DNA of 64,000 nt, taken from Candidatus Woesearchaeota archaeon. GTDB taxonomy: Archaea > Nanobdellota > Nanobdellia > Woesearchaeales > UBA11576. The DNA lies in the NCBI GenBank assembly GCA_018668595.1, contig JABJCP010000011.1, positions 1 to 64,000 on the forward strand. The letters are read 5' to 3'. This document shows, one piece after another, positions 24,855 to 50,673 of this stretch (position 1 is the first letter of the stretch; every line of letters starts with the position of its first letter). The notes beneath the pieces are model-generated. The model ran no database searches. It was not told where the DNA came from and saw nothing but the letters and a program-made list of their open reading frames with translations. A program made the position numbers and the translations under genes.

Positions 24855-26105
24855 ATGGAACTTATAACTCAATTTATTTTATTAGGTATTCTATTAATTT
24901 TATCAGGAACTTTTTCAGGTACTGAAACAGCGTTCTTTTCATTATCACATCTTAAACTTAGAAATTTACTTAAGCAAAAAAAGAAAGGAGCAATTTATGC
25001 ACATAAATTAAAACAAAATCCTAGACGCTTAATAATCACTATTTTAATTGGAAATAATGTCGCAAATATTGGTGCTGCATCTTTGGCAACAGTTATTGCA
25101 ACAAATTTATTTGGGTCTAGTGGTGTTGGTATTGCTACAGGAATTATGACTTTTCTTGTGCTTATTTTCGGAGAAATTACACCTAAATCTATTGCAAATA
25201 CTTATGCTGAAAAGTTTTCATTAGGAATTGCAAGACCTTTGATTATTTTTATGTACATAATATTTCCCTTAGTGTTATTTTTTGAAAGCATTACTAATGT
25301 TATGTATGCTATTTTTCATGTTGAAAATAAAGAACCCGTATTAACAGAAGAAGAATTTAAAACTTTAGTTGAAATTGGTGCAGAAGAAAAAGTTCTTAAG
25401 AGAAAAGAAAAAGAGTTAATTGAAGGCGTACTTGAATTTGGAGATATTACTGCAAAAGAAGTTATGACTCCTCGAACTAAAATGTACTCTCTAGATGGAA
25501 GCATTCCATTAAATAAAGCTTTAAAATCTATTGCAGATAGTCCATTTTCACGAGTTCCTATTTTTAATAAAAAAATTGATAATGTTATTGGAGTTGTTCA
25601 TCTCAAAGATGTAATAAGATATGTTTATAGAAAAAAAACTAAGTTAAAACTGAGTAAAATTGCTCAAAAACCTTATTTTATTCCTGAAACTAAAATTATT
25701 AGTGATTTGTTTAAAGATTTTCAAGAACAAAATATTCACATGGCTATTGTTGTTGATGAATACGGCGGAGTTTCTGGAATCGTAACTTTAGAGGATCTTT
25801 TAGAAGAAATTGTTGGCGAGATCATTGACGAATCGGATATTAATCCCGAACTTATTATGCGAATTGACAATCATACTGTTGTTGTTCATGGAGATACAGA
25901 AATTGATCATATCAATCATTTCTTTGGAACTATGATTCCTGAGGGAGATCATTCTATTACCATTGGCGGACTAATACTTCAGCATCTAAAAAAATTCCCT
26001 AAGAAAGGAGCAAAGTTAGAAGTAGAAACTATCAAAATAATTGTAGAAGAAGTTAGTGAAAAACATATTCTAAAAGTAAAGTTAATCAAACCTAGAACTA
26101 AGTAA
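24855..26105 (+). CDS. CNNM/CorC-type membrane protein with CBS pair
   Basis: 416 aa. An N-terminal DUF21 domain with about four membrane helices (family mark SGTETAFFSLSHLKLRNLLKQKKKGA) is followed by two CBS domains (about 205-325; MTPRTKMYSLDG, SRVPIFNKKIDNVIGVVHLKDV and MAIVVDEYGGVSGIVTLEDLLEEIVGEI), then a CorC/HlyC C-terminal domain. Such proteins act in magnesium or other ion transport; the CBS pair senses adenine nucleotides. Stand-alone gene. Confidence 0.9.
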   Translation: MELITQFILLGILLILSGTFSGTETAFFSLSHLKLRNLLKQKKKGAIYAHKLKQNPRRLIITILIGNNVANIGAASLATVIATNLFGSSGVGIATGIMTFLVLIFGEITPKSIANTYAEKFSLGIARPLIIFMYIIFPLVLFFESITNVMYAIFHVENKEPVLTEEEFKTLVEIGAEEKVLKRKEKELIEGVLEFGDITAKEVMTPRTKMYSLDGSIPLNKALKSIADSPFSRVPIFNKKIDNVIGVVHLKDVIRYVYRKKTKLKLSKIAQKPYFIPETKIISDLFKDFQEQNIHMAIVVDEYGGVSGIVTLEDLLEEIVGEIIDESDINPELIMRIDNHTVVVHGDTEIDHINHFFGTMIPEGDHSITIGGLILQHLKKFPKKGAKLEVETIKIIVEEVSEKHILKVKLIKPRTK

Positions 26106-28126: not shown

Positions 28127-28330
28127 CGAGCCTGGGGGGACTTTCGACTTTGAGTAAAGTTGTCTGCCAGGCACCTCTCCTGTCAGTCTTACCCTCAGTA
28201 TTCGAACCCCCGATCTTCTGCTCTCACCAAAATAAAAACTTAATCTTTATTAAATTATATAATTAGGAGGCAGATGCCCTATTTACTCAACTTTGCGAAT
28301 GCAATAGTTACCAGGCTAGGCTACAGGCTC
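28127..28330 (-). tRNA. tRNA-Arg(CCU) with three introns
   Basis: Acceptor arms 28324-28330 and 28128-28134 pair perfectly (GAGCCTG/CAGGCTC), discriminator G at 28127, CCA not encoded. Mature length 73 plus discriminator after removing three insertions. (1) D loop: 29 nt, about 28281-28309. (2) Anticodon loop at 37/38: 41 nt, 28223-28263; loop CTCCTAA, anticodon CCT at 28265-28267. A bulge-helix-bulge is visible with central helix CTCC:GGTG (one U-U mismatch). (3) T loop at 59/60: 60 nt, 28141-28200, with a perfect bulge-helix-bulge: exon stem GGGGG:CCCCC, central TTCG:CGAA, bulges AAT and AGT; splicing gives TTCGAAT. The D insert (28282-28290) and T insert (28150-28158) share 9 nt of perfect complementarity. 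Confidence 0.93.
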
Positions 28331-30503: not shown

Positions 30504-31769
30504 ATGTCTGATCTTAAAAAGAGGTATAAGGAATCTATTATCATTTCTATTGTGATCTATGTAATTTTATTGTTCTACTTAGGCACCATGACTCAAGCCC
30601 CTATTAATAATGTTATTATAGGCACATCACCGATTCTTCTTCAGATCGCATTTATTGCATTATTTTTTAATCATGATTTAAGAACTGAAATTTTTTGGGT
30701 TAGTCCAATTATTCTTACACTTTTGTTCTTAGGCGCGTGGAATATTGGTTTGAATAATACTTTAAATCAACTTGAAGCTCCTCAGCTTAGTTTATTAAAT
30801 CTTATTATTTCATATATAATAACTGGAATTGTATTTTTTATTGCATCAGTAAAACAAAAGAAAATAAAGAAAAAAGAGTTAGTTACAAAAACAAAATATA
30901 GAAACTTGTTGGTAGAATATCGTAGAATGGTCGCTGCCAATGAAAGAATCGTATTAGAATTAAAAAAAGAATTAGAAACATTAAGAGTTAATAGTAAACA
31001 AGAATATACTAGCATAATTAATGAATATTATGCGCATTATGAGAAACAAAAAAAAGGTATAGAACAACTAAAATCAGAATTGGCGAATTCATCTAATGTT
31101 GACATGGATGAATACGAAAAATTATTACATAAATTTCAATCTGCAAAACTTAGTGATAAAAGGAAAATTGCAGAACTTAAAACTAAAATTAGAACAGTCC
31201 AACATAAAGAAAAGAAAAATACACTCCAAATTAAACAAGAACACCAATTAGACAAACAAAGAAGCTCTGAAGAAATCAGTCGTTTGAATGAAGAACTCAG
31301 AAAAATCAAAGAAGAATTAAACATCACAAAAGGTAATTTTTCCAAAACATTAAGAAGTATTGAAGATAAATGTAAAGCTATTAATTTTGTTATTGGGAGA
31401 GTTTATTCTGATAAAAAAGGGGGCAGTCCTGAACTTAGAAAAAAATTAATAATTGATAGAGAATGGTATAATCAATTTTCTAAACTTACTAAAAATTTCA
31501 AAGACGATGATGCTCCTGCACTATTAGAAATTCTTTATCTAATAAGAGAACGATTATCACTACATAAAAAAAGAGAAAAACATGTTCTAGGGAATATTAA
31601 AGCTGAAAAAATTCCTGTTAAAAGAAATAAAGAAGGTAATGATCCTATTCTCTTAATTCTCGCAAACAACGACGAGGATCCTGTATTATATTATCATGAA
31701 GAAGCAAAAGAAATTGCAACAAAATTAATTAAGTATCTTCATGAAACTTATTTTTCCCATAGAATATAA
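30504..31769 (+). CDS. Membrane protein with cytoplasmic coiled coil
   Basis: 421 aa. Four hydrophobic helices in the first 115 residues (IIISIVIYVILLFYLGTM, ILLQIAFIALFF, ILTLLFLGAWNIGL and LIISYIITGIVFFIA) are followed by a long charged coiled coil (about 120-280) and a C-terminal globular part of about 120 residues (AINFVIGRVYSDKKGG, later EEAKEIATKLIKYLHE). A TTTATAAATA box at 30469-30478, about 30 nt before the ATG, suggests leaderless expression. Family unknown; the architecture suits a membrane-anchored scaffold or sensor. Confidence 0.75.
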   Translation: MSDLKKRYKESIIISIVIYVILLFYLGTMTQAPINNVIIGTSPILLQIAFIALFFNHDLRTEIFWVSPIILTLLFLGAWNIGLNNTLNQLEAPQLSLLNLIISYIITGIVFFIASVKQKKIKKKELVTKTKYRNLLVEYRRMVAANERIVLELKKELETLRVNSKQEYTSIINEYYAHYEKQKKGIEQLKSELANSSNVDMDEYEKLLHKFQSAKLSDKRKIAELKTKIRTVQHKEKKNTLQIKQEHQLDKQRSSEEISRLNEELRKIKEELNITKGNFSKTLRSIEDKCKAINFVIGRVYSDKKGGSPELRKKLIIDREWYNQFSKLTKNFKDDDAPALLEILYLIRERLSLHKKREKHVLGNIKAEKIPVKRNKEGNDPILLILANNDEDPVLYYHEEAKEIATKLIKYLHETYFSHRI

Positions 31770-50549: not shown

Positions 50550-50673
50550 AGCCTCCGGCGAGAGTTGAACTCGCGACCTGCTGATTGCCTGACTACAATT
50601 TGTAGCTACAAGTTACGGTTAGATAATCAATAAGATTGTCTATCAGCCGCTATAGCCACTAAGCCACGGAGGC
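50550..50673 (-). tRNA. tRNA-Thr(UGU), probable, with two introns
   Basis: Acceptor arms 50667-50673 and 50551-50557 pair perfectly (GCCTCCG/CGGAGGC). Discriminator U at 50550, the base expected for archaeal tRNA-Thr. Anticodon stem GCTGA (50643-50647) pairs with TCAGC (50580-50584); T stem GCGAG/CTCGC with loop TTCAACT. The loop region is 58 nt instead of 7. No single cut restores a U at position 33; two cuts do, leaving loop C/T-TTGTAA with anticodon TGT (50608-50610). Predicted introns: about 30 nt (50612-50641 or one base shifted) and 21 nt (50586-50606). Intron 2 fits a relaxed bulge-helix-bulge with central CTTG:CAGG. Intron 1 has no clear motif, so identity is provisional. Confidence 0.78.

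Follow-up and report, generated by a model that had tools for sequence, protein, structure and literature searches.

A tRNA gene interrupted in three loops

The window analysed here, a 64,000-nt stretch of a Candidatus Woesearchaeota contig (JABJCP010000011.1), contains at 28127..28330 on the minus strand a tRNA-like locus of 204 nt that is missed by ARAGORN and by the Rfam model RF00005, and the question it raises is whether so long a locus is a working gene and, if so, how its transcript is brought to the size of a tRNA. We propose, with a probability of roughly 93%, that the gene is functional and encodes a tRNA-Arg(CCU) precursor with three archaeal bulge-helix-bulge (BHB) introns, which is spliced to a 75-nt tRNA. 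The source genome (G000) comprises 2.32 Mb in 45 contigs and is 90.5% complete.

The gene has four exons. Exon 1 (28311..28330; GAGCCTGTAGCCTAGCCTGG) supplies the 5' strands of the acceptor and D stems and the D loop to G19; exon 2 (28264..28282) the remaining D arm and the anticodon stem and loop to A37, including the anticodon CCU; exon 3 (28201..28222), for which there is a 23-nt exact exon match, A38, the 3' strand of the anticodon stem, the variable region, the 5' strand of the T stem and UUCGAA; and exon 4 (28127..28140) U60, the 3' strands of the T and acceptor stems and the discriminator G. The 5' part of the precursor reads GAGCCUG-UA-GCCU-AGCCUGG(28 nt)AUA-GGGC-A-UCUGC-CUCCUA(41 nt) and the 3' part A-GCAGA-AGAUC-GGGGG-UUCGAA(60 nt)U-CCCCC-CAGGCUC-G. 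Cutting out the 28-, 41- and 60-nt inserts of the D, anticodon and T loops leaves tRNA-Arg(CCU) with an unbroken cloverleaf, in which the D loop (AGCCUGGAUA) is the same as that of an Arg tRNA of this family that has no introns (L041, in genome G004). A preliminary description of the locus had placed a tRNA-Arg(CCU) with inserts in these three loops at the same position, which our analysis confirms; its further statement that the product is a standard tRNA also stands, while the length it gave, 73 nt plus discriminator, has to be amended, since the exons amount to 75 nt with the discriminator included.

Intron borders were placed by the BHB rule. The T-loop intron (60 nt, at 59/60; 28141..28200) has the strict hBHBh' form, with a 4-bp centre UUCG:CGAA, two 3-nt bulges (AA^U and AG^U) and an inner helix ACU:AGU. 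The anticodon-loop intron (41 nt, at 37/38; 28223..28263; z = -4.2) is relaxed, with one U.U mismatch in its centre CUCC:GGUG. Both motifs had been anticipated, as canonical and relaxed respectively, and both were recovered. Folding the intact 204-nt precursor to its minimum energy gives a long-armed cloverleaf that contains the T-loop BHB exactly. The D-loop intron (28 nt, after G19; 28283..28310) had been described without a BHB, and we identify one here, also relaxed, with centre GCCU:GAGU containing one C.A mismatch and bulges GG^U and AA^A. Of the two GCCU repeats in the D-loop exon, the first pairs in the mature D stem and the second with the intron; folded in isolation, the D-arm segment forms only the D stem and an inner hairpin, and shuffled sequences fold equally well (z = -0.57).

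The gene architecture, the splice sites and the orthology of Arg(CCU) are established at the level of sequence comparison. For the processing we infer cleavage by a single alpha-type EndA, ligation and an order of removal: the precursor would fold as a cloverleaf with longer D, anticodon and T arms, EndA would cleave within the two 3-nt bulges of every intron, the exons would be joined into the 75-nt tRNA by a tRNA ligase, presumably RtcB, and the mature tRNA-Arg(CCU) would decode AGG codons.

Orthologs, empty sites and alternative readings

The only same-genus genome found (G001) carries a syntenic ortholog of the gene, in the order gatE, a CBS-domain gene, the tRNA gene and the ortholog of ORF 30504-31769. 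It has three introns (60, 40 and 43 nt) at unchanged sites and with diverged sequences; in the anticodon intron both the site 37/38 and GGUG are kept. Exon 1 is 100% identical in the two genomes, and over the 75 positions of the spliced tRNA there are 3 differences, two of which constitute a single compensatory change of a T-stem pair (G50-C64 to A50-U64, G000 to G001) whose members flank the T intron on opposite sides. In the sister genus g2, the Arg(CCU) gene of G006 carries D, anticodon and T introns, that of G009 (L132, read by eye) D and T introns, and that of G002 a D intron alone. The G002 and G006 genes are orthologous (82% identity over approximately 1.5 kb, as far as the anticodon intron), and removal of the predicted 22-nt anticodon and 18-nt T inserts from G006 yields the G002 sequence exactly, from the 3' strand of the D stem to the end of the tRNA. 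These exact empty sites are the strongest evidence for correct boundaries and for clean gain or loss of introns. Archaeal BHB introns are expected to restore a canonical tRNA on exact excision, and here the product is the 75-nt cloverleaf and the empty-site allele is identical. D and anticodon introns are also present in G003 and G032.

The unusual length of the locus, and the failure of standard tRNA finders to detect it, might suggest a decaying tRNA pseudogene that has acquired insertions. However, the exons are near-identical to those of the syntenic G001 gene and include a T-stem pair that has changed in a compensatory manner across the T intron, while the inserts lie exactly at BHB sites; nor was a replacement copy found, as a search with the spliced exons detected no other intact Arg(CCU) in either G000 or G001, although the G000 assembly, being 90.5% complete, could miss one. 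The preliminary description had singled out such a second copy as a check on the gene, and none came to light. We consider decay very improbable. Marginally less improbable, and still most unlikely, is that the inserts are kept as expanded D and T loops of an unusual mature tRNA, a possibility raised by the uncut precursor itself, which is still a long-armed cloverleaf. Against this, sister species keep the BHB elements but have inserts that have diverged freely, in size as well as in sequence, related genomes contain exact insert-free alleles, and a retained T insert would break the elbow formed by the D and T loops.

It could also be supposed that the D and T introns pair with each other, in an assisted or permuted form of processing, since in G000 they share by eye 9 nt of exact complementarity (TTGAGTAAA/TTTACTCAA). 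But the fraction of shuffled sequences with duplex energies as low is 0.47 for G000 and 0.77 for G001, and each intron has a separate BHB, so that we regard pairing of this kind as no more credible than decay. Excision of three BHB introns from a functional transcript is preferred because sites are shared between sister species whose inserts have diverged and exact empty sites occur in a related genus, and because the two halves of a T-stem pair have changed in a compensatory manner on either side of the T intron and no second intact Arg(CCU) was found.

Distribution of loop introns in Woesearchaeales

A scan of 288 Woesearchaeales genomes for the T-loop BHB pattern gave matches in 91, and the reversed-pattern control was far lower, with few matches; these counts, like all those given here, derive from covariance-model and pattern searches, and the T-pattern counts include some chance matches. 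In a phylum-wide draw the pattern was present in 52/166 genomes of the order versus 8/113 others (counted from the listing). Although the search did not impose an inner helix, 32 of the 129 distinct inserts form one, compared to a shuffled-partner expectation of 7.9 (sd 2.5), both without offset; allowing a 1-nt offset the number is 39/129. Among 30 loci sampled, 27 can be read as tRNA genes, which belong to many isotypes; 12 have only a T intron, 10 have anticodon and T introns, 3 have D and T introns and 2 have all three. Two further loci failed to parse as tRNA, and one, L085, resembles 23S rRNA by eye.

The D-intron pattern gave 27 matches in 25 of the 288 genomes and none with the reversed-pattern control. 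Pairing with the exon GCCU was not demanded by this search, yet 19 of 28 intron strands pair fully with it, compared to 1% for random 4-mers. In relatives this strand is mostly GGGC, AGGC or GGGT, of which GGGC and AGGC give complete pairing.

RF00005 detects 15–20 tRNAs in each of the intron-rich genomes G000, G001, G002, G006 and G019, the last of which is a single contig and 100% complete, and 40–45 in G007, G010, G012 and G022. Many tRNAs of the former five genomes are probably hidden by multiple introns. Since RF00005 counts are low in intron-rich genomes, some DPANN tRNAs recorded as missing are probably concealed in the same manner, a point relevant to claims of host dependence. tRNAscan-SE 2.0 uses noncanonical-intron models derived from Crenarchaeota, Euryarchaeota and Thaumarchaeota (PMC8450103).

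Several other tRNAs were noticed. The other tRNA of the window (50550-50673, minus strand), an RF00005 match, is best read as a tRNA-Thr(UGU) gene that contains one intron of 30 nt at 30/31 and another of 21 nt at 37/38. The second apparently forms its BHB best after removal of the first; taken at face value, the loop yields the false anticodon GAC. The intron of Arg(UCU) lies near 29/30 in G000 (L037/L046, G000:C28 ~25744-25891, minus strand) and in G006 (L047), and at 37/38 in G002 (L058), which belongs to the genus of G006, and thus the position appears to have changed within one genus. A further strict-type T-loop intron lies at G000:C11:257-306, close to two weak tRNA matches.

The splicing endonuclease

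The preliminary description had suggested searching this genome for a splicing endonuclease of broad specificity. An enzyme of the known broad types is not what the searches recovered: there is one alpha-type EndA gene (G000:C28:57702-57962; PF01974, E = 2e-29; TIGR00324 above cut-off), and no second subunit was detected in the source genome by PF01974, NF007085 or tblastn. The encoded ORF of 176 residues has both Pfam domains and the catalytic Tyr/His region. Its closest PDB relative is the alpha subunit of N. equitans (3iey, E = 2.5e-37), it aligns collinearly with the M. jannaschii enzyme (1a79) apart from a gap of one residue, and its relatives in named genomes are mostly labelled Candidatus Woesearchaeota, with other labels including Nanoarchaeota and Nanoarchaeia.

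Crenarchaeal EndA is an (alpha-beta)2 enzyme with a Crenarchaea-specific loop (CSL) of 15–18 residues, the fused chains of the epsilon2 (ARMAN) and alpha'2 types have approximately 290–395 residues, and relaxed BHB motifs have been tied in the literature to (alpha-beta)2 or epsilon2 enzymes. None of 37 Woesearchaeales EndA sequences, drawn from both intron-rich and intron-poor genomes, has an insertion at the CSL site, and no ARMAN-type loop (ASL) was seen in the source EndA. A lysine in the turn beside the CSL site was considered as a marker of intron-rich genomes and rejected, as intron-poor genomes carry it too. At 176 residues the protein is too short for a fused chain, and as a single gene of about 180 residues with both Pfam domains it looks, judged by sequence against the published classes, like alpha4, a class expected to be narrow in specificity (PMC6379350).

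In 28 further genomes one EndA locus is the rule, although none was detected in G154 and G211. G134 has two full EndA-like genes (L249 and L274), which may reflect contamination (4%) or a second enzyme. Weak second matches (E 0.1–0.3) were obtained in G051, G071, G130 and G226, and those in G071 and G130 were rejected because both lie in unrelated ORFs.

The co-occurrence of relaxed introns with a plain EndA may reflect an enzyme broader than its class, tolerance of single mismatches, or a partner that was missed. Intron diversity has been reported to go with CSL or ASL loops (PMC12397907, PMC6379350), against which stands the presence of the same plain EndA in intron-rich and intron-poor genomes, a contrast that is biochemically testable. 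We suggest tentatively, at somewhat less than even odds, that in Woesearchaeales noncanonical and relaxed introns, up to three per tRNA, are removed by a single-gene EndA lacking a second subunit, CSL or ASL, and that the link of diversity to those features fails in this order.

Comparison with known systems

The splicing mechanism is the known one, and three-intron tRNAs are already known. Our search found no literature linking Woesearchaeota with BHB tRNA introns, although most subscription papers lay outside it and priority is not established. Up to three BHB introns per tRNA are reported from Thermoproteales, with tRNA-Glu(UUC) of Pyrobaculum calidifontis and tRNA-Pro(UGG) of P. islandicum as examples of multi-intron pre-tRNAs (Sugahara et al. 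2008, cited by PMC4390854). The view that three introns are known mainly from Thermoproteales, taken in the preliminary description, is therefore right as to their occurrence there and wrong if it implies confinement, since they are recurrent in Woesearchaeales and the red alga Cyanidioschyzon merolae has three tRNA genes with D, anticodon and T introns (PMC9602550). In C. merolae, a eukaryote, the introns of tRNA-Ile(UAU) lie at 12/13, 37/38 and 53/54 (PMC9602550), whereas here they lie after G19 and at 37/38 and 59/60. In N. equitans the splicing endonuclease also includes a beta subunit (NEQ261), of which no equivalent was detected here.

The resemblance to Thermoproteales thus extends to as many as three BHB introns in an archaeal tRNA, to the mixture of canonical and noncanonical sites and to recent gain or loss among close relatives. 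The difference lies in the lineage and the enzyme: this is a DPANN archaeon in which one alpha-type EndA gene was found and no CSL was seen, whereas Crenarchaeota have an (alpha-beta)2 enzyme that bears a CSL. It is this pairing of an intron-rich lineage with a plain one-gene endonuclease that makes the system of interest.
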